Translations under genes and position numbers: made by a program
The notes under the pieces: generated by a model
Database searches by the model: none
Told to the model about the DNA's origin: nothing
What the model saw: only the letters and a program-made list of their open reading frames with translations
Assembly: GCA_012519005.1 (NCBI GenBank)
Contig: JAAYRB010000041.1
Location: 1 to 34,020, forward strand
Direction of reading: 5' to 3'
DNA: 34,020 bases
From: Clostridia bacterium
GTDB taxonomy: Bacteria; Bacillota; DTU086
Shown: positions 6,737-20,016 of the stretch, one piece after another
Position numbering within the stretch: the stretch's first letter is position 1
Layout of the letters: each line of letters starts with the position of its first letter

Positions 6737-8305
6737 ATGATATTCATGGTTTTACCTAAACTGGGGGCTGTTTTTATGTCAATGGTTTTTCCTAAGGGGG
6801 ACAGGCTGGCGGTGGTGCTTCTGGTTGTGTTGGGTGTGACCCTTTTAACTGCCAGGTTTGTGAAGCCGTCGGTACCAGTTAAGGGTTTTATTGCTTTGCA
6901 TACTTTATTGAATCTCTTTGTTTCCGTACTGGTATTTGTGTCTTTTGCAATGGTTTGGTTCATTTTCCGTGGGAATAAGGGTTCTTTAAACTGGACATAT
7001 GCAATGATGTTTTTCGCGGCTGGTTCCTTTTTTATTTCATTTGTTGTGGTTATTGATCTGATGATTGGAACAAGCAGCTCCCGGAGTCACCTATGCTTTT
7101 ATTTTTTTCTATCCCTTTTAGCCAATCTTTTTACCAGCCTGGCCTTCTTTTCCATAACATCTTCTATGCTGAATTCTAAGGGATGTACAAAGAAATTCTA
7201 CCCCACCGCTTTTTGTATCCTGATTTTTATATTGACTGCCAGTACTATATATCTTCACAAAACCCCTCATCCAATAATCTATGAGGTCATTCCAGCCCTT
7301 TCCATCTTAGCAATATATTTGCTGTGCTCTCGGTATGTTAAAAGGCTTGGGTTAAACCTCGGGACAAAAATTCGAACACTGTTATATAGGGCCGCAGTCC
7401 TTATTATTTTGGCCCAACTGGGCGCCCTCCCCCATGTTTTGGATAATCAGATCTGTCATATTTTGACCCATTTATACCTGGCAATGGCATATATCTATTT
7501 TTTTAGGGCGCTGCTGTTGTCCTTGGAAGAAAAGCCCCCAGGTAAGCTCTGCCTGAACAGACAATTTCGTGATTATGATCAGCTTTACACATTGGGGGAA
7601 GTGGCAGCAGCAACGGTGCATGAGATCCGCAACCCCCTCACCACAGTGAAGGGGTTTCTGCAGATTATTCAACAGAGAATAAACAAGGAGCAGGATGTGG
7701 CCGCACAAGATTTGAATATGTATACTACATTGATGCTCAGTGAACTGGATCGTACCAACTGTCTCTTGGAAGAGTTTCTTCTTTACTCCCGGCCGGGTCA
7801 AGAGGAGTATAAAGTAGGGGATTTGAGGGCTGTGGTAAATGAAATAATGCCCATCGTGAAAAATCAGGGCCTGTTAAAAGGGGTGGAAGTTCATGAGGAC
7901 ATCTCTGATTTCCCCATCCCTGTTCATTTGAATCCCCATCAGATGAAGCAGGTATTATTAAACTTGACCACCAATGCCTTTGACGCCATGGAGAAGAGCC
8001 CCAGTAAAAATCTGAATATATACTGCGGCATAAATGAAGATGGCGGTAAGGTAATACTAAGGGTGTCTGATACCGGCACGGGTATTGGCCCAGAAATAAT
8101 GGGCAGGATATTTGACCCCTTCTTCAGCACAAAGATGTTGAGGAGTGGAACCGGGCTGGGCTTGGCCGTGGTCAATACCATCATCAGGAATCACGGCGGC
8201 AGGATCAGTGTGGAAAGCTGTGAAGGGAAGGGCACCCATTTTATCATCGAACTTCCCCATGATCTGATATATAGTCATAATGCCGCCCATGCAATCCCGG
8301 GCTAA
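6737..8305 (+). CDS. Orphan membrane sensor histidine kinase (KinB/NtrB-like catalytic core)
   Basis: 522 residues. The N-terminal half (about 1-260) has about seven hydrophobic helices and no obvious extracellular ligand domain. The C-terminal half is a HisKA/HATPase_c core: H-box TVHEIRNPLTTVKGFLQ with the phosphorylated His near residue 295, N-box NLTTNAFDAM, G1 DTGTGIG, F-box FDPFFSTK and G2 GTGLGLAV. No response regulator is adjacent, a layout typical of sporulation phosphorelay kinases such as KinB, so Spo0F or Spo0A is a possible partner (inference). It follows ktrA after 52 bases but has its own promoter. The exact start is uncertain: ATGs at 6737 and 6746 both lack a strong SD. Confidence 0.88.
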   Translation: MIFMVLPKLGAVFMSMVFPKGDRLAVVLLVVLGVTLLTARFVKPSVPVKGFIALHTLLNLFVSVLVFVSFAMVWFIFRGNKGSLNWTYAMMFFAAGSFFISFVVVIDLMIGTSSSRSHLCFYFFLSLLANLFTSLAFFSITSSMLNSKGCTKKFYPTAFCILIFILTASTIYLHKTPHPIIYEVIPALSILAIYLLCSRYVKRLGLNLGTKIRTLLYRAAVLIILAQLGALPHVLDNQICHILTHLYLAMAYIYFFRALLLSLEEKPPGKLCLNRQFRDYDQLYTLGEVAAATVHEIRNPLTTVKGFLQIIQQRINKEQDVAAQDLNMYTTLMLSELDRTNCLLEEFLLYSRPGQEEYKVGDLRAVVNEIMPIVKNQGLLKGVEVHEDISDFPIPVHLNPHQMKQVLLNLTTNAFDAMEKSPSKNLNIYCGINEDGGKVILRVSDTGTGIGPEIMGRIFDPFFSTKMLRSGTGLGLAVVNTIIRNHGGRISVESCEGKGTHFIIELPHDLIYSHNAAHAIPG

Positions 8306-8682: not shown

Positions 8683-9504
8683 TCAGCCTTTGAAATACCT
8701 GAAATACCCGTATAATTTCTTGCAGAGGATTACGGACATCAACTGCAGTAAAGAAAACAGGACTATGGTTCCCCCCGGGGCAAGGGATAAATGGAAGGAG
8801 ATCAGCAGGCCCACCAAAACACCTGTGATGGCCATCAGCACAGAAATCAGGGCGGCAGCCCTGAAACTCCCCGCCAATTGCAGGGCTGTGGCAACGGGGA
8901 TTGTCATCAGGGAGGACACAAGCAATATACCCACAATCCTCATGGAAGCCGCCGCTGTAACAGCTGTCAAAAGAGTGAAATAGATATTGATTGTGTTGAC
9001 TGGGATACCTGCTAGAGCAGCACCTTCTTCATCAAAGGAAATATAAAATAAAGCTTTGTAGAGCAGAGTGGTAGATATGATCACCAGCAGGCCCACGGAA
9101 ATAATGATATAGAGATCCATCTCAGTGACGGCAATTATACTTCCGAATAGATAGCTGAGGATGGATGCCGTATTTCCCTTTCCTAAACTGATTAAAATTA
9201 CCGCCAATCCCATCCCACCGGACATGATCAAGGCAATGGCCAAATCCGCATGTTTTTGATAATGTTTCCTGAAATATTCGATGCCCAGTGTACCAAAAAT
9301 GGCAAAAATCATGGCGGATAATGTGGCATTGATCTGGGCTACAAGTCCGGCGGCCACCCCGGCAAAGGAGATATGGGAAAGGGCATCCCCGATGAGGGAC
9401 AGCCTCCTCAGGACAAGGAAAATGCCCATAAGAGGGCTGATGATTCCCACAATTATTCCCGCCGCCAAAGCGCGCTGCATGAATCCATACTGTAGGATTT
9501 CCAT
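8683..9504 (-). CDS. znuB: Zinc/manganese ABC transporter permease (ZnuB-like)
   Basis: 273-residue integral membrane permease of the ABC-3 family with about eight hydrophobic helices. It opens with MQRALAAGIIVGIISPLMG followed by FLVLRRLSLIGDALSHISFA, a stretch typical of ZnuB/AdcB/MntB-type permeases. It is the last gene of the minus-strand operon znuA-znuC-znuB and begins one base after the znuC stop, so translation is probably coupled. Substrate choice rests on ZnuA, whose ligand set looks zinc-type. Confidence 0.92.
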   Translation of the reverse strand: MEILQYGFMQRALAAGIIVGIISPLMGIFLVLRRLSLIGDALSHISFAGVAAGLVAQINATLSAMIFAIFGTLGIEYFRKHYQKHADLAIALIMSGGMGLAVILISLGKGNTASILSYLFGSIIAVTEMDLYIIISVGLLVIISTTLLYKALFYISFDEEGAALAGIPVNTINIYFTLLTAVTAAASMRIVGILLVSSLMTIPVATALQLAGSFRAAALISVLMAITGVLVGLLISFHLSLAPGGTIVLFSLLQLMSVILCKKLYGYFRYFKG

Positions 9505-9505
9505 C

Positions 9506-10270
9506 TCATTCCCCCTCTGCCAGGTGAAGATGATAAAATTGGCTCAAAAAGCCATCCCTTTCCTTGAAAAGTTGTTTCTTCATATATTCCTTGGGGTTGT
9601 GCTCGATGATCTCCTGATTGTAGATGCATACCATCCTGTTGACCCTTTGTGCCGCCGAAATAATATCATGGGTGACCATGATCAGGGTGAGCCTATGATT
9701 CTCATGCAGCCCTGAAAGAAGTGTATACAGGGAGGATTGGGATTCCGTATCTATACCTGCCATGGGCTCATCCATAAATATGAGATCCGGTCTTGTTACT
9801 AGAGTGCGGGCAAGAAACACCCTTTGCTGCTGCCCTCCTGACAGTTTACCCACCATGGAGTCCGCGCAGTGGGAAAGACCTACCAGCTCTAGAACCTCCC
9901 GGACTCTTTCCTTATGTTGAGTTTTCAGAAATTTGAATAATCCCAGGTGGGCTGATTGGTGGGCCTCCAGCACTTCCTTTACTGTTGCTGGAAATGTGGG
10001 GTCAAAAGCGGCAGCCCTTTGGGGAATATATCCTATCCTGTCCCATTGGTTAAAAGATGCTGGATCTTGCCCCATAAGAGTGATACTTCCCCTATTTGGT
10101 TTCAAAAGACCCAACATAATTTTCAATAGAGTGCTTTTTCCGGATCCATTGGGGCCTACAACGGCAATGAAATCCGACTGCTGAATATTTAGATTTGCAT
10201 TGCTCAGAATCGGCTTGTTGCCGTAGGAGAAGGATAAATCCTTCACTTCTAAGATGCTTTTTTTACTCAT
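9506..10270 (-). CDS. znuC: Zinc ABC transporter ATP-binding protein (ZnuC-like)
   Basis: The cytosolic ATPase of the importer, about 254 residues. Walker A GPNGSGKST, Q-loop in RIGYIPQ, signature LSGGQQQR, Walker B LIFMDEP and the switch His in MVTHD are all present, so it should be active. The ATG at 10270 overlaps the end of znuA by 8 bases and has a GGGG element just before it. A longer reading from a TTG at 10285 lacks an SD. It sits between znuA and znuB in one operon. Confidence 0.93.
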   Translation of the reverse strand: MSKKSILEVKDLSFSYGNKPILSNANLNIQQSDFIAVVGPNGSGKSTLLKIMLGLLKPNRGSITLMGQDPASFNQWDRIGYIPQRAAAFDPTFPATVKEVLEAHQSAHLGLFKFLKTQHKERVREVLELVGLSHCADSMVGKLSGGQQQRVFLARTLVTRPDLIFMDEPMAGIDTESQSSLYTLLSGLHENHRLTLIMVTHDIISAAQRVNRMVCIYNQEIIEHNPKEYMKKQLFKERDGFLSQFYHLHLAEGE

Positions 10271-11198
10271 TTTGCCCCAGGGCAATCTTTAGCTGCTCTA
10301 AATTGTCATACATCAATGTCATATAATTTTCACCTCTACTCTCCTGTTCCTTTGTCAATGTACCTATGGGATTCAGAAAAAGGATTTCTGATTGGGTTTC
10401 GTCAGCTAAGGTTTTGGTCACCTTGATGCTGCTCAAGGGTTCCGAGAAAATATAGCCTATCCCATGGGTTTTTAGCAGTTTTATCAATTCCCCAAGATAT
10501 GCAGGGTTTGGTTCGCTTTCCTCCCCCATTCCCATGATGGAAATTTGTTTTAGATCATATCTAGCTGCCAGATAGCCGAAGGCCCCGTGGGTGACCACGA
10601 ATTCCTTTCCCTCACATTTACGAAGTGTTTCATCGTAATCCCTGTGAAGTCCATCCAATCTCAGGGCCAGGGAGGTGAAGTTTTCCCCATAGCTGTCTTT
10701 GTTTTTCTTGTCTACTTTTATCAGGGTTTCCGCTATGGCCTCCGCCATATTTTTAGCCATCACGGGATCAAGCCAAAAATGGGGATCCGCTGTGTCCACA
10801 GGATACCCAGGATCATTTCCCTGGGGGAGTTGATCGTAGACTACCTCAGCAATTTGAAGGACTGACACATTTTCCCCTAGGGATCCGGCTACCTTTTCCG
10901 CCCAAGGCTCCAAACCTGCCCCGTTATATATGAAAAGGTCAGAGGATTGAAGATCTACAATTTCCTTGGGTGAGGGTTCGTAGGTGTGAGGATCAGAAGA
11001 GGGGGGCAGTATCTCCACTATATCCGCATGATCCCCGGCAATCTCGGAAGCAAGATAATATATGGGGTGGATGCTGGTGTAGACCTTCGTCCTGCCGGTG
11101 TGGGGGTTTCCTTTTTTGGGGTTTTCAGTACAGCCTGAGATTAAAAAAGCAGCCAGCAGCAGTTGGAGGAGCAGGATTACCACCGTGAATCTTTTCAT
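10263..11198 (-). CDS. znuA: Zinc-binding lipoprotein of ABC importer (ZnuA/AdcA type)
   Basis: 311-residue metal-binding receptor anchored outside the membrane. A signal peptide ends in the lipobox LISGC (Cys23). Candidate ligands are His71 (DPHTYEP), His140 (DPHFWLDP), His204 (VVTHGAFGY) and Glu253 (FSEP). A His at the third position matches zinc receptors; manganese receptors such as PsaA have Glu there, so zinc is the likely substrate. The His-rich loop seen in many ZnuA proteins is replaced by a short Asp/Pro-rich stretch. It is the first gene of the operon and follows a promoter region full of dyads. Confidence 0.92.
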   Translation of the reverse strand: MKRFTVVILLLQLLLAAFLISGCTENPKKGNPHTGRTKVYTSIHPIYYLASEIAGDHADIVEILPPSSDPHTYEPSPKEIVDLQSSDLFIYNGAGLEPWAEKVAGSLGENVSVLQIAEVVYDQLPQGNDPGYPVDTADPHFWLDPVMAKNMAEAIAETLIKVDKKNKDSYGENFTSLALRLDGLHRDYDETLRKCEGKEFVVTHGAFGYLAARYDLKQISIMGMGEESEPNPAYLGELIKLLKTHGIGYIFSEPLSSIKVTKTLADETQSEILFLNPIGTLTKEQESRGENYMTLMYDNLEQLKIALGQNE

Positions 11199-11327: not shown

Positions 11328-11461
11328 GCGGGACGGCTTGCACCAACAAACTTGGATTCGCGGGGAGCATTATCCGGGTGATTCCACACATTTTACATAC
11401 TCTTGCCATAAAGCCTCTAAATAAATAGGGTATACTGATTTTGGGGATGGGGTAAAGCCCT

Positions 11462-11532: not shown

Positions 11533-12087
11533 ATGATGATGAAAAGAATTTTATTGATAGCAATTGCCCTGCTGCTGGTAACAGCCTTAGCTGTTCCTGT
11601 TCTCGCCCACGGGGGTGGTGGCTTTGGCGGTGGTATGGGGATGGGACATGGCCACAGCCGCAGTCACGGCCACGGCCATAGTCACGGTTATTGCGGAGAC
11701 TGCCCTCTCTATGACGACCCTTCTTCGCAGGATGTCCGGGATCAAATGCATGAATATAGGGATAATCACCATGAATTGAGGGAGAAAATGTGGGATGCAA
11801 GGGATACGAGGCAGCAGAAGGCCAGGGAGGCTTGGGAAAATAATGACTCCGTAACCTTGGAAAAACTAAGATCTTGGAGGGGTGAAATGCAGAATTTTAG
11901 AGATGAGGCGGCACCCCTATACCAGGAAAAATCCGAAATTCGGGATCAGTACAGGGAAGCAGCATCCCAAAGGGATTTTGAAAGTACAAAGGATCTAGGG
12001 CAAAGAATGGTGGATTTAAGTAAAAAGATTTATGAGATGAGATTGGGTTTTTTCGATAGGCTTCAGTCCATACTGGGAAAACTGTAA
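11533..12087 (+). CDS. Secreted His/Gly-rich CpxP/Spy-like protein
   Basis: 184 residues with a Sec signal peptide (about 1-25, ending VPVLA). A metal-binding-looking stretch follows: GGGMGMGHGHSRSHGHGHSH, then YCGDCP, a CxxC pair (about 53-58). The rest (about 65-184) is charged and helical, like the CpxP/Spy/ZraP group of envelope stress and metal-binding proteins. It contains two RDQ(M/Y) turns rather than a clear LTxxQ motif, so the family call is tentative. GGGAGG precedes the ATG. A strong terminator follows. It lies next to znuABC (divergent) and 1.3 kb before a two-component pair whose kinase shares the GMGMG...SHGHG pattern, so a link to metal or envelope stress is likely. Confidence 0.75.
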   Translation: MMMKRILLIAIALLLVTALAVPVLAHGGGGFGGGMGMGHGHSRSHGHGHSHGYCGDCPLYDDPSSQDVRDQMHEYRDNHHELREKMWDARDTRQQKAREAWENNDSVTLEKLRSWRGEMQNFRDEAAPLYQEKSEIRDQYREAASQRDFESTKDLGQRMVDLSKKIYEMRLGFFDRLQSILGKL

Positions 12088-12121
12088 TATAAACTGAAAA
12101 TATTCTGTAGATTACTTGGAC

Positions 12122-12144
12122 GGCGGCATTTGCCGCCTTTTTTT
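12122..12144 (+). terminator. Intrinsic terminator after the His-rich gene
   Basis: GGCGGC/GCCGCC six-pair stem with an ATTT loop, directly followed by seven T. A textbook rho-independent terminator 35 bases after the stop codon. Confidence 0.9.
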
Positions 12145-12159
12145 ATTCACTTCTGCTCA

Positions 12160-12169
12160 CCCCCCCCCC
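12160..12169. repeat. C10 homopolymer
   Basis: Ten consecutive C lie between the terminator and the truncated MFS gene. Runs this long are prone to slipped-strand change and to sequencing error. A matching G9 run lies at 940-948. Confidence 0.8.
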
Positions 12170-12239
12170 TTCTTTTATTAAATCCAAACCTGTAAGACCT
12201 CCCTTTAATCACGGAAAATTCAGCCAAATAGATGTATAA

Positions 12240-12377
12240 AATCAATTGGGGCTCATCAAGGGTGTGACTTTGACTGGAGTCATCCCAAGAAGCTTTGTAG
12301 AAACCAATACTAAAGCACATTTCCAGATCATAGATGGTGAAAAGGTGCAGGATCCATTCCATGATGACCGTTCCTAA
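12240..12377 (+). pseudogene. Possible remnant of an unidentified gene before the MFS fragment
   Basis: An open frame of 45 codons without a start codon lies between stops and reads protein-like (for example TGVIPRSFVETNTKAHFQ and IIDGEKVQDPFHDD). It ends where the MFS-like sequence begins in another frame. It may be the tail of a gene joined to the MFS fragment by deletion. No family was recognised and it could be chance. Confidence 0.25.
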
Positions 12378-13188
12378 AAATATGAGGGGCTTTAGTTCAG
12401 CCATAATCAACTCAGGGATGGCCATTGGTTTGGCCATCGGTTTGGGTGTTGCAGGTCCCGTTTATCTGTTTTTTAACAATTGGAGGGCGCCTTTTCTCTC
12501 ACTAGCTATTCCCACCATGCTTGTTGCCCTCATATATCAAGCCGTGATGAGGGATGCAAGACCAGCGGAAAAAGTGACTGTGCCCTGGTCTGAAATTCTC
12601 GGTAACAAGAATCTGATGCTGCTGAATGTGGCCATATTTTGTTCCCAGTACGGTTTTTGGACTGTTTTGACCTGGGGCCCTACATTTTTCATGGCGGAAC
12701 GGGGGTTGAGCCTAACGGTTTCTGGGCTTTATACCGCAATTGTGGCTGTGACTGCCATACCCGCCGGCATCTGGTTCGGAAGGAACTCAGATCGTTTTGG
12801 CCGAAAAAAGCTTGCCCTCATCATCCTGCCCCTGACAGCTCTAACCGTTGCCGCCATGGGGTATGTCATGTCGCTGCCCATGCTTGTTGCAGCTTTAATT
12901 GCCTATGGAATAGTAGGAAAATTCTCCTTTGATCCCGTTTCTGTGTCTTGGGTGGGCGACCATGTGGCCCGAACAAATCCGGAGGCAATGGGAACGGCCA
13001 TAGCTGTATTCAATATGAGCGGTATGTTATCATCCATCGCAGCCCCCGTGGTGGTAGGATGGATCAGGGATATCACTGGTTCTTTTGTTGGCGGCTTCTA
13101 CCTTGGGGCGGTAATATTGCTCATTGGTATGGTGGTAGTAGCATTCATCGATGAGACCGTTGAGGAGAAGAAAACAGCCTCCGCCTAG
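12334..13188 (+). pseudogene. MFS transporter, 5'-truncated
   Basis: 284 codons that match only the middle and C-terminal part of a 12-helix major facilitator permease. Recognisable sequence starts at PKNMRGFSSAIINSGMAIG (near TM4-TM5); the first three to four helices, about 120-130 residues, are missing. The interdomain motif DRFGRKKLA, which normally follows the second-half helix pair, is present. The first 13 codons look unrelated and there is no ribosome binding site before the first ATG. The rest is free of stops, so the loss is probably recent. It is unlikely to transport anything. A strong terminator follows it. Confidence 0.75.
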
Positions 13189-13226
13189 GCAGCGGCCGAG
13201 GTGGGGAATTGCAAGATCATAATTCA

Positions 13227-13272
13227 AAAGGGACGACGGTGATTAAACAAATTCTCACTGTTGTCCCTTTTT
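13227..13272 (+). terminator. Strong intrinsic terminator
   Basis: A 16-pair stem (13227-13242 with 13255-13270, two G-U pairs) with a 12-base loop ends in a run of T. It separates the MFS fragment from the two-component genes. Confidence 0.88.
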
Positions 13273-13362
13273 ATTTAGATACGGATTGTTTCACACGGAA
13301 AGTGATTTAATTTAGAAAACCTCCGAATTGTTGTAAAATGTATACAGCCTTTATTTAGAAAC
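13272..13362 (+). promoter_or_regulatory. Upstream region of the two-component genes with repeated WATTTAGA motif
   Basis: TATTTAGAT (13272), AATTTAGAA (13309) and TATTTAGAA (13352) occur on the same strand, and a fourth copy TATTTAGAT lies at 11296 in the znu/His-rich intergenic region. They may be binding sites of the response regulator, but the motif is AT-rich and short. A palindrome TGTATACA lies at 13339-13346. Confidence 0.25.
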
Positions 13363-13420
13363 AAAGCTAATCCATAGGGAAGTTATTATGGGCTTTACTT
13401 CCAGGGGGGAATAGATAAAA

Positions 13421-14098
13421 TTGAAGACTGTTTTTATTCTGGATGATGAGAGGGCCATTTTGGATTTGATAAGTAAATATTTGACCAAGGAAGGTTACTC
13501 TGTGGAAACTTTTCTAAATGCAGAGGATCTGCTCAAAAGGATAGAAATAAAGATGCCCGATATGTTTGTTCTTGATATCATGCTGCCGGGCGGGATGGAT
13601 GGTTTGGAATTATGCCGACATTTAAGGACCGTGACAACAACTCCCATTATCTTTGTATCTGCCAAGGGTGAGGAGCTGGATCGGATCTTGGGTCTTGAAC
13701 TGGGGGCCGATGGCTATCTCACAAAGCCCTTCAGCCCCAGGGAATTGGTGGCCTATATTAAAACTATTTTTAGAAGGGTGGATTTCTCCAATGAAGCCCC
13801 TTCTTTGATCGAGTATGGGGATTTGAAGCTGTCCGTGGAGGAAAGATGGGCTTCAGTAAACTCCAAGGATCTGGAGCTCACTGCAAAGGAGTTTGATCTA
13901 TTGAGCAATCTCTTGGGAAATATCAACAAAGCCTTCAGCCGTCAGGAACTTTTGGATAGAATTTGGGGTTATGACTATGTAGGGGATATACGGGTTGTGG
14001 ATGATTTGGTTAAAAGGCTTCGCAGGAAACTAAGGGAGGCGGGGGCAGCCGTGGGCATCTCCACGGTGTGGGGCTATGGATATAAAATTGGGGAATAG
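13421..14098 (+). CDS. OmpR/PhoB-family response regulator
   Basis: 225-residue DNA-binding response regulator. The receiver domain has the acidic pair in FILDDERAI, the phospho-acceptor Asp in MFVLDIMLPG (about residue 51), the switch Ser in IIFVSAKG and the Lys in LTKPFSPRE. The C-terminal half is a winged helix (ELTAKEFDLLSNLL through VWGYGYKIG). The recognition helix reads DLVKRLRRKL where many family members have VxVHIRRLRxKL. The TTG start follows GGGGGGA by 11 bases. It overlaps the kinase gene by 23 bases, so they are co-translated partners. Likely targets are the nearby envelope/metal genes and itself (inference). Confidence 0.92.
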   Translation: MKTVFILDDERAILDLISKYLTKEGYSVETFLNAEDLLKRIEIKMPDMFVLDIMLPGGMDGLELCRHLRTVTTTPIIFVSAKGEELDRILGLELGADGYLTKPFSPRELVAYIKTIFRRVDFSNEAPSLIEYGDLKLSVEERWASVNSKDLELTAKEFDLLSNLLGNINKAFSRQELLDRIWGYDYVGDIRVVDDLVKRLRRKLREAGAAVGISTVWGYGYKIGE

Positions 14099-15533
14099 AT
14101 TTAAAAGTTTTTCTGCTAAAATTGCATTGGGATATATCATACTGCTTGTGGTTTCTTTTTTAGTGGTGGGTTTTTCATTCCATGGGCTTGTTACGAAATT
14201 CCTGGTCAGGGACGCACAGGATTCCCTGCTGCGTGAAGGTGAGGCTATGATGGAGGCGGCCGCCCTTCAACCGCCGGGTAATGCCGGTATGGGTATGGGC
14301 CCCCGCGGCTCCCATGGTCATGGGCCCGGACATGGGGGTAGAAGGCGGCTTGTTCTGGGTACCCGTTTAGTTCAGGGGGATTATATATTTACTGACCTGG
14401 ATTTGAATATTATGGATAGCAGCAGGCCGGATTTGTTCCCTATAAATTCCACTGTTACGGGCCCCATAGGGGATGTCCTGCTAAAGGAAAGGCTGACCCC
14501 TGGATCAGGGCTTCGTTTTTCCACCGGGGATTTTGTGGCCGTGGCTTTGCCAGCTGCCGGTGCAGGGAGCGAGGTATCCGGCATCTTAATTTTGTTGGCT
14601 GCTGTGGATATCGTTGAGGGTATTTCCTGGGAAATCGCCAGGCTTCTCCTGATTATTTTAGCTGCGGCATCCCTTCTTGGGATATTGCTGGCTTTAGCGC
14701 TGGGAAGAAGTATATCTCGACCCCTGGGATTTCTAAAGAAAAAGGCGAGGGATATGGCTTCCAGGGATTTTTCCCATAAGGTGGACATTCGAACCGGGGA
14801 TGAGATGGAGGAGTTGGGAGAGGCCTTCGATTTGATGAGGGAGAAATTGATGGAGTACGATGCTGCCCAGCGTAGATTCCTTCAAAATGCTTCCCATGAG
14901 CTAAAAACCCCATTGATGTCCATCCAAGGCTACGCCGAGGCGGTGAAAGACGGGGTAGTTGATGGTGAGGAAGAAGTGGACAGAAGCATGGATGTGGTTA
15001 TTCGGGAAAGCCAACGTTTAAAAGATATGGTGGAGGATATTATTTTCCTCTCAAAGCTGGAAAATTTTGAAGAGCAGTATGACTATAATGAAGTTGAGAT
15101 TGAGGAGCTGCTTCATGAGGCAGTTGAATCGGTACAGGGATTTGCAGGGGATCGAGGTATAACTCTAAGGTTTTCCCCGGACACCATGACCAGCCTTTAC
15201 TGCGACGGGGAAAAAATGCTTCGGGTATTTGTAAATATATTGGGCAATGCCGTCAATCATGCCTCTGACGAGGTGGCAATATCTGTGGAGCAAGCAGGAG
15301 ATGGGTGTAAAGTAATCTTTCAGGATGATGGGGAGGGCTTTACAGAGAAGGATCTGGATCGGCTTTTCGACAGGTTTTATAAGGGCAGCGGCGGGGGCTC
15401 TGGTCTTGGCATGGCTATCGCCCGCACCATCGTGGGGAACCACGGTGGGGGGATTACAGCCGACAATACGGATATGGGCGCCAGGGTGGTGGTTCTTCTG
15501 CCCGGCGGCGTAAAAATGAAGGGTCAAATATAA
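14076..15533 (+). CDS. Membrane sensor histidine kinase with His/Gly-rich extracellular segment
   Basis: 485 residues: TM1 (about 15-37), an extracellular sensor of about 150 residues, TM2 (about 187-210), HAMP (about 212-262), then HisKA with FLQNASHELKTPLMSIQGY (His near 274) and HATPase_c with NILGNAVNHA, DDGEGF, FDRFYKG and GSGLGMAIA. The extracellular part carries GMGMGPRGSHGHGPGHGG (about 71-88), close in style to the secreted His-rich protein encoded upstream. This suggests metal sensing or direct contact with that protein, as CpxP contacts CpxA. It is coupled to the response regulator gene by a 23-base overlap and followed by a terminator. Confidence 0.92.
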   Translation: MDIKLGNRFKSFSAKIALGYIILLVVSFLVVGFSFHGLVTKFLVRDAQDSLLREGEAMMEAAALQPPGNAGMGMGPRGSHGHGPGHGGRRRLVLGTRLVQGDYIFTDLDLNIMDSSRPDLFPINSTVTGPIGDVLLKERLTPGSGLRFSTGDFVAVALPAAGAGSEVSGILILLAAVDIVEGISWEIARLLLIILAAASLLGILLALALGRSISRPLGFLKKKARDMASRDFSHKVDIRTGDEMEELGEAFDLMREKLMEYDAAQRRFLQNASHELKTPLMSIQGYAEAVKDGVVDGEEEVDRSMDVVIRESQRLKDMVEDIIFLSKLENFEEQYDYNEVEIEELLHEAVESVQGFAGDRGITLRFSPDTMTSLYCDGEKMLRVFVNILGNAVNHASDEVAISVEQAGDGCKVIFQDDGEGFTEKDLDRLFDRFYKGSGGGSGLGMAIARTIVGNHGGGITADNTDMGARVVVLLPGGVKMKGQI

Positions 15534-15585: not shown

Positions 15586-16470
15586 TTATTTCACTTGATT
15601 CATCATGAAATCCAGTACATCTCCGTCAATATATCCGTCCTCAGCAATACGGTCATCAAAGTTTTCTGTGAGGTAGTAGGTCTTCAATGCTTCCTGCAGC
15701 TCCTCGGTCCAATTTCCTGAGTAAGCCCCCTGGAAGTAATCCAGCTGAATCAGGGCCTTGGCGATTTTTTTCTCCACATCTCCCTCTATTTTGCGAATCC
15801 TATCAGGATCAGTTTTAGTAAAATAAAGCTTGTGCAGATCATAGATCCTCATCAATTCCTTGATGGGGTTCGGATGGTCGTCCACCCTCAGATCAATGAA
15901 CCGATCGTTGAACCCACCGTAGCCACCCTCTGGCTTTACCACCAATATAGCCGCGGATTGCATTCCCCGACTGTCCCCGCCGGCGTCCTGTGCCGCATCC
16001 AATGCTTCGAGAAGCCTTGAGGCCAGATCACCCTGGGATTTTTCGAAAACCTCCGCCATTTGGGTTACTGTTTCCTCATTCACCAGGATATTGCCCTGGC
16101 AGGCATAATTTTCCCCTGTCACACCCCCGGCCCAGGGGAAGCATTCTTTTCCTGTGAAGCTGGCAGCGTTGCCCTTGGCATCCACAATACCCACTTGTCG
16201 GTATTCCTTTTTTCCATCATCCTCCAGCAGAATATTCAATGCTTCCTGGGGGGTATGGCCCTTTTCCAGCAGCTCCAGACCCCGGGGCCCAAAGCTGGTA
16301 TTGGCCCAGGATTGGGTGGCTACTGCCCCCACCCCGGCCTTGGCCCAGGGCACGGCATTTCCCACCGCCAAAAATTTAGATTGTACCGCTATCCCCAGCT
16401 CGTCATTTTCCGGATCCGCCGCCACGATGGAATATGTGGCGATCACATCTTTCATATTTGGACTCTTCAT
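15586..16470 (-). CDS. DUF1028 family putative Ntn-hydrolase with C-terminal peptidoglycan-binding-like segment
   Basis: 294 residues. The N-terminal 210 or so match DUF1028: TYSIVAADPENDELGIAVQS, VGAVATQSWANTSFGPRGL and GGVTGENYACQGN are recognisable, and the family has an Ntn-hydrolase-like fold. The C-terminal 65 residues resemble the peptidoglycan-binding-like segment often found in this family. Most relatives begin Met-Thr-(Phe/Tyr)-Ser-Ile; here that Thr is residue 12, so if it is the nucleophile the N-terminus would have to be trimmed. No signal peptide, so cytosolic. GGGAGGT precedes the ATG. It is the last gene of the dpp operon, which suggests it acts on imported peptides. Its substrate is unknown. 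Confidence 0.85.
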   Translation of the reverse strand: MKSPNMKDVIATYSIVAADPENDELGIAVQSKFLAVGNAVPWAKAGVGAVATQSWANTSFGPRGLELLEKGHTPQEALNILLEDDGKKEYRQVGIVDAKGNAASFTGKECFPWAGGVTGENYACQGNILVNEETVTQMAEVFEKSQGDLASRLLEALDAAQDAGGDSRGMQSAAILVVKPEGGYGGFNDRFIDLRVDDHPNPIKELMRIYDLHKLYFTKTDPDRIRKIEGDVEKKIAKALIQLDYFQGAYSGNWTEELQEALKTYYLTENFDDRIAEDGYIDGDVLDFMMNQVK

Positions 16471-16489: not shown

Positions 16490-17410
16490 TTATTGTTTCA
16501 GCCTTGGATCAAGGGCGTCTCTTAGGCCATCCCCCAATAAGTTCAGGGATAAAACCACTATAAAGATGGCCATACCCGGCAGCAGTGATATGTGGGGGGC
16601 GGCCCTTAGAAAATCCTTGCCATCACTGAGCATAACTCCCCATTCAGCTGTGGGAGGCTGTGCCCCCAGCCCTAAAAAACTCATACCCGAGGCGGCAATG
16701 ATCATCCAGCCCACATCCAGTGTAGCCGCCACGATGATGGGGGATAGGGAGTTGGGCAGGATATGCTTAAACAGAATACGCAAATCCGAGGCCCCCAAGG
16801 CCTTTTGAGCCTCGATGTATTCCTGTTCCCTAAGGGACAGCACCGTACCCCGCACAATCCTGGCATAGTAGGGTATCCCCACGATGGAAATGGCAATCAT
16901 GGCATTTAAAAGGCCGGGGCCCAGGGCGGCAATAATTGCTATGGCCAGAAGCACATAGGGGAATGCCATAAGGATATCAATGAATCTCATGACCAGTGTA
17001 TCAAAAAACCCCTTATAATAGCCGGCTAAAAGTCCGATGGTAATCCCAAAAAACATGGCTATCCCCACGGCGGTGAAACCGATGGCCACGGAGATTCTAC
17101 CGCCGTATAGCAGACGAGTAAGCATATCCCGGCCCAAATGATCTGTCCCCAGGATATGCCCCGGTGTACCCATGGGCAGTAGGCGGTTGGAATTGACGAC
17201 GGTATTGGGATTATGGGTGCTGATGATAGGTGCCAAAACAGACACCAAAACGACAGCAATCAGTATACAACCCCCGGCCACGGCCAGTTTATCCTTTTTT
17301 AGCCGGCGCCATGCTTCCTGCCCCGGTTTCAACTGTTCAATTTCCAAACCATCATGGGCCTCGTGTGCCGCCTGGGATTCAAGGTTATCTATATTGGTCT
17401 GTGCCTGCAT
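16490..17410 (-). CDS. dppC: Peptide ABC transporter permease, DppC/OppC type
   Basis: 306-residue inner permease with a cytoplasmic N-terminal extension (about 45 residues), about six helices and the EAA loop EAQKALGASDLRILFKHILP that docks on the ATPases. The OppC N-terminal segment LKKDKLAVAGGCILIAVVL and the motif GTDHLGRDMLTRLLYGGRIS are typical. Start ATG with GGGGGC upstream. It follows dppB after 15 bases and precedes the DUF1028 gene after 19 bases. Confidence 0.93.
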   Translation of the reverse strand: MQAQTNIDNLESQAAHEAHDGLEIEQLKPGQEAWRRLKKDKLAVAGGCILIAVVLVSVLAPIISTHNPNTVVNSNRLLPMGTPGHILGTDHLGRDMLTRLLYGGRISVAIGFTAVGIAMFFGITIGLLAGYYKGFFDTLVMRFIDILMAFPYVLLAIAIIAALGPGLLNAMIAISIVGIPYYARIVRGTVLSLREQEYIEAQKALGASDLRILFKHILPNSLSPIIVAATLDVGWMIIAASGMSFLGLGAQPPTAEWGVMLSDGKDFLRAAPHISLLPGMAIFIVVLSLNLLGDGLRDALDPRLKQ

Positions 17411-17425
17411 TTAATCAGCCCCCGA

Positions 17426-18373
17426 TCAGTTATAAGAGATGCGTGGATCAAGGAAAGCGTAAACAACATCCACAATTAAATTAACAAAAACATAGGTGGT
17501 GGCGACAAACAGGATAGTTCCCTGTACAAGGGGAAAATCCCGGGCTAGGATGCCGTTTACCATCAATGTTCCTATCCCCGGCCAAGCGAAAACTATCTCT
17601 ACCAACACTGCACCGGAGAGTAGAAATCCAATCTGCATACCCACCACGGTGACAATGGGAATCAAAGCGTTTCGCAGGGCATGTTTATATGTTACTATCC
17701 TTTGTGACAAGCCCTTAGCCTTTGCGGTCCTCACATAGTCCTGTCGGATTACTTCCAACATGCTGGATCTGGTCATCCTTGCTATTTCCGCCATGGAACC
17801 GGTGGCCAGGCTTATCCCCGGCAAAATCAGGAAGGGAAGCATGCTCCCAAAGCCCGTCTGACCCGGGGGATACATACCCGATACAGGAAGCCAGCCCAAT
17901 TTAAGACCGAAAATAATTTGGAGTATAAGGCCGAGCCAAAATACAGGTAGGCAAAAACCTACCAATGCCATGAACATCAAGAAACGGTCGCTGAAGGAGT
18001 ACTGCCTGGTGGCCGAAATAATCCCTGCCAACATACCAAAGCTGACAGCGATGAAGGCGGCAAAGACGGTGAGAATGGCGGTGGCTTTAAACCTTGTGAT
18101 CACAAGGGGCAATACTTCCCGCTTAAGCTGAATCGACCGTCCCCAATCCCCCTTTAGAACATTGGTTATCCACTGAAAATACTGTCTATGAAGGGGTAGA
18201 TCCAATCCCAATTGATGCCTTAGGGCATCTAGGGATTGCTGTGTGGCTTTTGGTCCCAGGATAATTTGCGCTGGGTCCCCCGGCGATAGATGTAGAATTA
18301 AAAAAACCAATATTGAAACCCCTATCAATACGGGTAATAGTGCAAGCAAACGCTTGAGTAAATATTTTAACAT
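17426..18373 (-). CDS. dppB: Peptide ABC transporter permease, DppB/OppB type
   Basis: 315 residues, the partner permease of DppC. It has the family opening YLLKRLLALLPVLIGVSILV, the loop HLSPGDPA, the docking segment RTAKAKGLSQRIVTYKHALR, and the C-terminal FAWPGIG and DPRISY motifs. SD GGGGTG is 7 bases before ATG. A GC-rich hairpin lies in the short gap to dppA upstream. Confidence 0.93.
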   Translation of the reverse strand: MLKYLLKRLLALLPVLIGVSILVFLILHLSPGDPAQIILGPKATQQSLDALRHQLGLDLPLHRQYFQWITNVLKGDWGRSIQLKREVLPLVITRFKATAILTVFAAFIAVSFGMLAGIISATRQYSFSDRFLMFMALVGFCLPVFWLGLILQIIFGLKLGWLPVSGMYPPGQTGFGSMLPFLILPGISLATGSMAEIARMTRSSMLEVIRQDYVRTAKAKGLSQRIVTYKHALRNALIPIVTVVGMQIGFLLSGAVLVEIVFAWPGIGTLMVNGILARDFPLVQGTILFVATTYVFVNLIVDVVYAFLDPRISYN

Positions 18374-18397
18374 ACCGGATCACCCCTGAGAAATTAC

Positions 18398-18424
18398 GCC
18401 GGGTGGATGCTCGTCACACCCGGC
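18398..18424 (-). promoter_or_regulatory. Intra-operon hairpin between dppA and dppB
   Basis: GCCGGGTG and CACCCGGC form a perfect eight-pair stem with an 11-base loop in the dppA-dppB gap. No U-tract follows on the minus strand. Such hairpins behind a binding-protein gene often stabilise its message and lower expression of the distal genes. Confidence 0.5.
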
Positions 18425-18435
18425 ATCACATATGA

Positions 18436-20016
18436 TTACTCTAATGTTACTTTACCAAAGCGGAATATGCCCGTGGGATGAAGCTCAAATCCCTTGATGT
18501 TATTTTTCATAGCAACGATCTGGGTTTCGTGATCCACAACAATCAGGGGAGAATCAGCCATGATCAGTTTTTGGGCTTCCTCATACATTTCAATCCTCTT
18601 GTCTTGGTCAGATAGGGTTCTAGCTTCCCTAAGAATTTTGTCTACCTCAGTGTTCTTGTAGAATGCCTCGTTGAATCCAGCGGTGGGCCACTGCTCGCTG
18701 CTCAATAGAATGTAGAGGAAGTTATCTGGGTCACCATTATCCCCCATCCAGGACATTTCGTGCATCAGCACATCATTTTCTTCCAAGGGCATGAAAACCT
18801 TGTCCAGATAGGTTCCCCATTCGACCTGCTGAATATTGGTTTTGATTCCCACTGCTTCCAGATCGGATTGGATAGCTGTGGCCATACTCACCGGCTGCTG
18901 CATTCCGGAACCGGATTTAGGAATATAGAAATCCACTTCGATTCCATCTTCATAGCCGGCTTCAGCCAACAGTTCCTTGGCCTTTTCTGGATTGTAGCTG
19001 TAGTCCTGCACATCTTCTGTGTAGCTCCAGATAACGGGAGGTAAGATGTTTTTGGCTTCTACACCGGTACCCATTAGAATATTGTCCACAATATCCTTCT
19101 TGTTAATGGCATAGTTGGCCGCCTGACGTACTTTCACATTGTCAAAGGGTTCTCTCTGGCAGTTCAATGCCAGGTACCAGGTATGCATGCCCGGCTGTTC
19201 CGCCACCAATAGATCCTCATTATCTTTCAGACGCTGTAAATCATCGGGAAGGATACCCACGATAAAATCAATATTTCCTGATTCCAGTTCTGTTAGACGG
19301 GTTTGATCCTCCACAATTGGTCTAAAAATTAGCTTGTCTATTTGAGGCTCATACTTCCAATAGTCCTGGTTCTTTTCCAAGACAACCTCTACCCCCGGTT
19401 CCCAGCTAACAAATTTGTAGGGGCCGGTTCCCACGGGGTTTTGCGAAATGTCCTTACCATGTTCCTCAATGGCACTGGGGCTGGACATGGCCGCAGAGTG
19501 CATGGCTATATTGCCCAGAAATGGAGCGAAAGGCTCGTTCAAGATGAATTTAACTGTGTATTCATCCACAACTTGAACTTCCTTGACCATTCCAAAGGTG
19601 AAATCGGAATAGGCAAATTCCCCAGTGTCATGGAAGGGGTGCTCTGTGTCTATTTGGCGGTCAATATTGAATTTCACCGCATCCGCATTGAAGGGGGTGC
19701 CGTCATGGAATTTTATATCTTCCCTTAGATAAAATGTATATTCTAGGCCATCTTCAGAGATATCCCAATCCGCTGCAAGGCCCGGCTCCAGTTCAGTGCT
19801 CCCATCCTTGAACTCCACAAGGTTGTCATAGAGATCCATAGCAGCCCTACTGGAGTTATAATCCGTTACCTGGGCGGGATCTAAGCTGGTGGGTTCCGCC
19901 TGAATTCCTATGACCACACTGCTGTCTCCGCCCGCCGCACCACCGCCGCCGCCTCCACATCCCGCGGCCGCCAGAACAATCAATCCCAAAGCCAGTAAAT
20001 AGGCGATCTTTCTCAT
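18436..20016 (-). CDS. dppA: Peptide-binding lipoprotein, DppA/OppA family
   Basis: 526-residue solute-binding protein (SBP_bac_5). A signal peptide with lipobox AAAGC (Cys20) is followed by a long Gly linker, so it is anchored to the outer face of the membrane. Family features: TSLDPAQVTDYNSSRA near the N-terminus, LREDIKFHDGTPFNADAVKF and DISQNPVGTGPYKFVSW. It captures short peptides or similar compounds for DppB/C. The exact ligand cannot be read off; neighbours point to peptides, perhaps cell-wall derived. It sits after the two ATPase genes rather than first in the operon. AAAGGA precedes the ATG at a rather long spacing. Confidence 0.93.
   Translation of the reverse strand: MRKIAYLLALGLIVLAAAGCGGGGGGAAGGDSSVVIGIQAEPTSLDPAQVTDYNSSRAAMDLYDNLVEFKDGSTELEPGLAADWDISEDGLEYTFYLREDIKFHDGTPFNADAVKFNIDRQIDTEHPFHDTGEFAYSDFTFGMVKEVQVVDEYTVKFILNEPFAPFLGNIAMHSAAMSSPSAIEEHGKDISQNPVGTGPYKFVSWEPGVEVVLEKNQDYWKYEPQIDKLIFRPIVEDQTRLTELESGNIDFIVGILPDDLQRLKDNEDLLVAEQPGMHTWYLALNCQREPFDNVKVRQAANYAINKKDIVDNILMGTGVEAKNILPPVIWSYTEDVQDYSYNPEKAKELLAEAGYEDGIEVDFYIPKSGSGMQQPVSMATAIQSDLEAVGIKTNIQQVEWGTYLDKVFMPLEENDVLMHEMSWMGDNGDPDNFLYILLSSEQWPTAGFNEAFYKNTEVDKILREARTLSDQDKRIEMYEEAQKLIMADSPLIVVDHETQIVAMKNNIKGFELHPTGIFRFGKVTLE

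Follow-up and report, generated by a model that had tools for sequence, protein, structure and literature searches.

A secreted helical protein and a sensor kinase with paired His/Met/Gly-rich stretches: a candidate metal-gated accessory module in a Clostridia bacterium

Layout of the locus

The window, i.e., the whole 34,020-nt stretch of contig JAAYRB010000041.1 that was analyzed (Clostridia bacterium, GCA_012519005.1), contains a gene for a secreted, His-rich protein and, downstream on the same strand, an OmpR-type regulator and a sensor histidine kinase (Table 1). The His-rich gene lies 1.33 kb upstream of the regulator gene and 2 kb from the kinase gene, with the regulator gene and an MFS gene that has lost its N-terminal third in between; the regulator gene overlaps the start of the kinase gene. 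A zinc importer, pointed out beside the pair in an earlier, sequence-only reading, is indeed present as a divergent ZnuABC-type system, 334 bp from the His-rich gene. That reading also proposed a Gram-positive counterpart of the CpxP-CpxA pair. Omp85 was not found in the host genome (97.6% completeness), which is consistent with a single-membrane cell and fits the proposal. Elsewhere in the window, a MASE3-like membrane sensor kinase without an adjacent regulator follows TrkH/TrkA-like genes (6737-8305), and a protein with DUF1028 and peptidoglycan-binding domains (15586-16470) adjoins dipeptide/oligopeptide ABC transporter genes (16490-20016, minus strand).

Table 1. Positions of the genes and sequence features discussed, in window coordinates.
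Feature	Position	Strand	Basis or detail
ZnuABC-type zinc importer, divergent from the His-rich gene	8683..11198	-	domain matches
Permease of the importer	8683..9504	-	
ATPase of the importer	9506..10285	-	
ZnuA	10263..11198	-	
TTTATTTAGA motif 5′ of the His-rich gene	11416..11425	-	motif scan
His-rich gene: secreted helical accessory-type protein assigned to the W family, with a His/Met/Gly-rich N-terminal insertion	11533..12087	+	184 aa; held-out W profiles, AF2 helices
GMGMGHGHSRSHGHGHSHG stretch at the junction of signal peptide and helical core	11632..11688	+	residues 34-52
Intrinsic-terminator-like stem-loop 3′ of the His-rich gene	12122..12144	+	GGCGGCATTTGCCGCC then TTTTTTTATT
MFS transporter remnant	12334..13188	+	PF07690 match begins at position 113 of 347
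Three TTWATTTAGA motifs (13270, 13307, 13350) 5′ of the response regulator gene	13270..13359	+	candidate regulator sites
OmpR/PhoB-type response regulator, TTG start	13421..14098	+	domain matches
Sensor histidine kinase (p-helix, extracytoplasmic PAS as modelled, HAMP, HisKA, HATPase)	14076..15533	+	485 aa
GMGMGPRGSHGHGPGHGG stretch in a disordered kinase loop that joins the p-helix to the first PAS strand	14286..14339	+	residues 71-88

On a transcriptional link between the two genes, the sequence points both ways: a terminator follows the His-rich gene, but a repeated motif is common to both upstream regions. The secreted gene's own terminator and the MFS remnant preceding the regulator gene argue against tight coupling. 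The motif TTWATTTAGA, a 10-mer picked after inspecting these same upstream regions, has four matches in the window where 0.17 would be expected; three lie upstream of the regulator gene, one upstream of the His-rich gene, and none elsewhere. Genome-wide, a twelve-letter form was found seven times (three upstream of the regulator gene) versus eight times for a reversed-pattern control. Taken alone, the motif has weak genome-wide support; it is a lead, not proof, for a possible regulon common to the regulator and the His-rich gene.

The secreted protein, the kinase, and their stretches

In the AF2 model of the secreted protein, computed from its single sequence, the signal helix is followed by disorder across the His-rich segment (pLDDT <50 at residues 21-36 and 38-51) and then by three long helices (residues 62-102, 108-144, and 148-181). 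In a Foldseek search with this model, ZraP (3lay) stood high in the list by probability (0.93) and TM (0.79 on the target, over 75 residues) but not by E-value (1.7). The sequence-only reading had called the protein CpxP/Spy-like, a label that its sequence does not support: there was no match to PF13801 or PF07813 at E 0.1 with the full-length protein or at E 10 with the core, the core scored only 10.4 bits (E 0.39) against a profile of the Bacillota PF13801 core, and inspection against the family alignment showed that the two LTxxQ motifs are not present. Filing the protein under PF13801 was dropped on the basis of these profile searches.

Direct homology searches with the His-rich protein gave no matches in 100 relatives, nor did a search of three genomes of the same family turn up a homolog. 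A PDB sequence search was of no help, its match to a zinc transporter being one of low complexity. A phylum-wide search gave weak matches only, several of which adjoin regulator-kinase pairs; these matches led, through a subfamily alignment and a profile search, to a family of secreted helical proteins of about 180 residues, named W in this analysis, with no confident Pfam match and a few sub-threshold coiled-coil matches. A broad W profile from which the window protein was held out scored 24.8 bits with the full-length protein and 15.0 bits with the core (0 of 4,000 shuffles). A second profile, built from the W proteins linked to the window's kinase clade and again excluding the window protein, scored 31.7 bits with the core (E 6.8e-8), a value reached by none of 10,000 shuffles, the best of which scored 11.9 bits. 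All core scores were computed with the His-rich low-complexity part removed. An E-value of 5e-21 from an early iterated profile was discarded because the protein had entered its own profile. As judged by the held-out profiles, the secreted protein is a member of this uncharacterized family.

The regulator consists of a receiver and a winged-helix domain, is the regulator of the overlapping kinase, and forms with it an OmpR-type two-component system. A Pfam scan of the kinase identified HAMP, HisKA, and HATPase domains but neither a named sensor domain nor a cytoplasmic PAS; the protein has two transmembrane helices. When modelled by AF2 with 22 aligned kinases, the sensor region took the form of a PAS core of five strands together with a long p-helix and the second transmembrane helix; among solved and modelled structures, those of WalK (9a5d, 7dud, 4ywz) came closest. 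The sensor is thus modelled as an extracytoplasmic PAS domain. A first scan of genome contigs with the kinase found no relatives. In a tree built from the regulator together with the kinase core, the window pair grouped with those of loci L137, L051, and L063 at 100/100, and in all three a small secreted protein is encoded beside the regulator-kinase pair.

The His/Gly pattern noticed earlier in the secreted protein and the kinase ectodomain is real. When the 31 long, non-overlapping ORFs in the window are ranked by their highest Gly/Met/His fraction in 18 residues, these two come out on top (0.83 and 0.78, respectively), and the third-ranked ORF reaches 0.50. Fractions of at least 0.72 were found in 10, and GMGMG in three, of 1303 neighborhood proteins, a set pre-enriched for such genes. 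GMGMGHGHSRSHGHGHSHG sits after the Sec-type signal peptide of the secreted protein and GMGMGPRGSHGHGPGHGG between the two transmembrane helices of the kinase, where residues 75-86 have pLDDT below 50. Both stretches are His-rich with HGHG spacing, and CGDC follows the secreted one. The GMGMGHGHSRSHGHGHSHG stretch is missing from aligned homologs of the secreted protein. At the GMGMGPRGSHGHGPGHGG site, kinases of the clade have no stretch in L051 and L063, a Gly/Met/His loop in L137, L327, and L363, and a Met/His loop in L329. In both partners, the His stretch is an insertion specific to this lineage and does not define the family. Since most kinases and W proteins homologous to the window pair are without it, metal cannot be the family's general signal.

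Related stretches also occur elsewhere. The same-clade kinase of L329 (4508-5896), whose loop reads GYWQRGMMHQYMTYHML, has no recognized secreted neighbor; a second kinase in L295 (392-1927) carries PMGKGMSKGYGTGGMGMG in its ectodomain, with no secreted partner recognized in the fetched stretch. On contig C55 of the window's own genome, a 192-aa protein with RGHGHGHGHG (L001, 55-633) is the sole forward-strand match, besides the His-rich gene, to a DNA pattern coding for HGHGH.

Conserved adjacency and paired occurrence

Outside the window, 17 of 18 W genes have a regulator or kinase gene within about 1.5 kb. The order W-regulator-kinase occurs in the window's kinase clade in L063, L334/L348, L338/L350, L351 (Alkaliphilus pronyensis), L352, and L355 (Paenibacillus), and was seen in several MAGs as well as in these two genera; Paenibacillus sp. 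Soil522 is one relative that has it. The W gene is divergent from the regulator gene in two Clostridium species (L356, L359), and the order is kinase-W in L332 and L361; a PF13801-like gene occupies the W position in L137/L346, and a weak one is found in L363. No such secreted-protein gene was seen beside the clade kinases of L326, L328, L330, L331, L347, L353, and L362, or beside more distant Bacilli kinases. The window order is therefore one that recurs in the clade, with the addition that an MFS fragment lies between the W and regulator genes. Fourteen loci share a different arrangement, a regulator-kinase-lipoprotein-W cassette. In examples of this cassette (L058, 3787-7045; L059; L281-L288; L290-L293; L295), the lipoprotein ends like ...LDTISDSDLE, and both small proteins had no confident Pfam match where scanned.

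Other secreted helical families show similar neighborhoods. A regulator and/or kinase gene was near PF13801-type genes in 18 of 41 fetched neighborhoods; the link is weaker for DUF2680 (7 of 30 short neighborhoods), which may be another partner family. In L149, the gene for a DUF2680 protein with a Gly/Met/Cys-rich tail (2249-2695) diverges from that of a kinase whose ectodomain carries a Gly/Met/Arg stretch. With the W-regulator-kinase order beside a related kinase in at least six other loci, the supposition that the secreted protein and the kinase go together is supported. Pairing of the secreted protein with a two-component system is well supported, and the conserved unit is the secreted partner together with that system.

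The stretches themselves also occur in pairs. In 40 kinase-partner pairs, all nine stretch-bearing kinases have a partner that also bears one, versus 9 of 31 kinases without a stretch (p = 1.8e-4, by a statistic that ignores phylogeny); when sister loci were counted once, by hand, the proportions were about 6/6 versus 6/21 (p about 0.003). The pairing is one-way, in that partner tails are frequent where the kinase has none. The correlated presence proposed as a check therefore holds from kinase to partner and fails in reverse. This positive result depends on the wider 40-pair set, to which stretch-free W-family pairs contribute much; in 22 pairs, mostly Spy-type, stretch strengths were not significantly correlated (Spearman). 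Kinases beside PF13801- or W-type genes carried a stretch of at least 0.44 in 8 of 22 cases, compared with 3 of 50 control kinases drawn mostly from the same genomes (p = 0.002), and in 5 of 15 after removal of the window and its near-copies (p = 0.013). One of the three stretch-bearing controls, that of L149, adjoins a DUF2680 protein with a Gly/Met-rich tail. The sequence-only reading had named a stretch-free kinase beside a His-rich gene as counter-evidence. This was not seen in the window's kinase clade, where most kinases and partners lack a stretch; in other clades, partners with Gly/Met-rich tails are common beside stretch-free kinases (9/31 pairs).

Proposed mechanism and relation to known systems

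CpxP binds to CpxA, from which stimuli displace it (PMC4160245), the sensor of CpxA is an extracytoplasmic PAS (PMC11078701), and, according to work cited in PMC10848872, E. coli ZraP acts as a repressor only in its zinc-bound state. Modelled on the action of CpxP on CpxA and of ZraP on ZraS, the three genes would form a module of secreted accessory protein, response regulator, and PAS-sensor kinase, in which the three-helix W protein most likely provides negative feedback, damping the kinase by way of the extracytoplasmic PAS domain. Both partners would have gained, in this lineage, a flexible His/Met/Gly stretch beside a folded domain, and a transition metal (Zn, Ni, or Cu) on these stretches would change how the accessory protein holds the kinase, thereby gating kinase output. 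The analysis establishes the genes, their folds as models, the conserved adjacency, and the paired occurrence of the stretches; we infer direct contact, the sign of the regulation, and metal binding, and metal gating is plausible. We give this reading as a whole, a CpxP/ZraP-like accessory module in which the stretches on both partners let metal gate kinase output, a probability of roughly 45%. It is rather unlikely that the proposal holds in its fuller form, with matched metal-binding tails that were co-acquired, metal bridging the partners or competing for them to gate a Gram-positive CpxP-like system, and the tails serving as an evolvable metal-input module on a metal-independent pair.

Alternatively, the secreted protein could be the kinase's partner while the stretches are flexible linkers or cell-wall tethers without a role in metal, the signal being envelope stress or misfolded protein. 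His is absent from most stretch sites in the partners and kinases of these families, many stretches elsewhere are rich in Gly/Met/Arg rather than His, and paired composition could come from a shared low-complexity expansion; however, both window stretches are His-rich with HGHG spacing, CGDC follows the secreted one, and a zinc importer adjoins, and we consider this account somewhat unlikely. The importer and its distance from the divergent His-rich gene would also suit a secreted zinc buffer or scavenger for ZnuABC that has lost its link to the kinase; the MFS remnant would mark the break, and the His-rich gene has its own terminator. We regard such a buffer as quite unlikely, given that His-free core homologs adjoin the same kinase clade with no evident zinc importer among the genes displayed, that the kinase also carries a stretch, and that the upstream motif is shared with the regulator gene and found nowhere else in the window. 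That the shared composition is a coincidence of two independent low-complexity expansions is very unlikely: the stretches are short, and secreted helical proteins of the phylum often carry Gly/Met/His tracts, but the pair ranks first and second in the window and every stretch-bearing kinase has a stretch-bearing partner.

Control of envelope-stress kinases by CpxP and ZraP has been described in proteobacteria, and a search of the literature that covered a minority of subscription papers found no described Gram-positive CpxP-like pair. Our data point to a wide association in Bacillota between PAS-sensor OmpR-type systems and secreted helical accessory proteins, which come from at least two families (PF13801 and the unnamed W, with DUF2680 as a weaker third); the association extends to genomes without an Omp85 match. 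An accessory-controlled stress response in Gram-positive-type bacteria thereby becomes directly testable, and the paired His/Met tails can serve as a natural experiment in the gain of a new input by a sensor.

The module is a new variant on the accessory-protein/two-component theme. Like CpxP-CpxAR of Escherichia coli, it joins a small secreted helical protein to an OmpR-type regulator and a kinase whose sensor is an extracytoplasmic PAS, with the genes side by side (PMC4160245; PMC11078701). Unlike that system, its secreted protein has no LTxxQ, PF13801, or PF07813 match, its host has no Omp85 match, and both partners carry His/Met-rich stretches. The modelled helical hairpin resembles ZraP (E. 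coli, Salmonella) at a Foldseek E of 1.7, but a sequence match to ZraP is missing. ZraR is a sigma-54 type regulator, whereas that of the window is of the OmpR/PhoB type. Metal-dependent repression in ZraP-ZraSR (PMC10848872) is a precedent for the gating proposed here. The sensor region has its best structural match in WalK, yet the kinase scores 190 bits against the WalK equivalog cut-off of 725 and has no cytoplasmic PAS by Pfam. WalK itself is modulated by the accessory proteins YycH/YycI. Finally, the window protein differs from the Bacillota PF13801 Metal_resist proteins in its core score and in the missing LTxxQ motifs, and the locus resembles theirs in that they too lie beside two-component systems, several of whose kinases have the same sensor domain with Gly/Met/His stretches in its loops.
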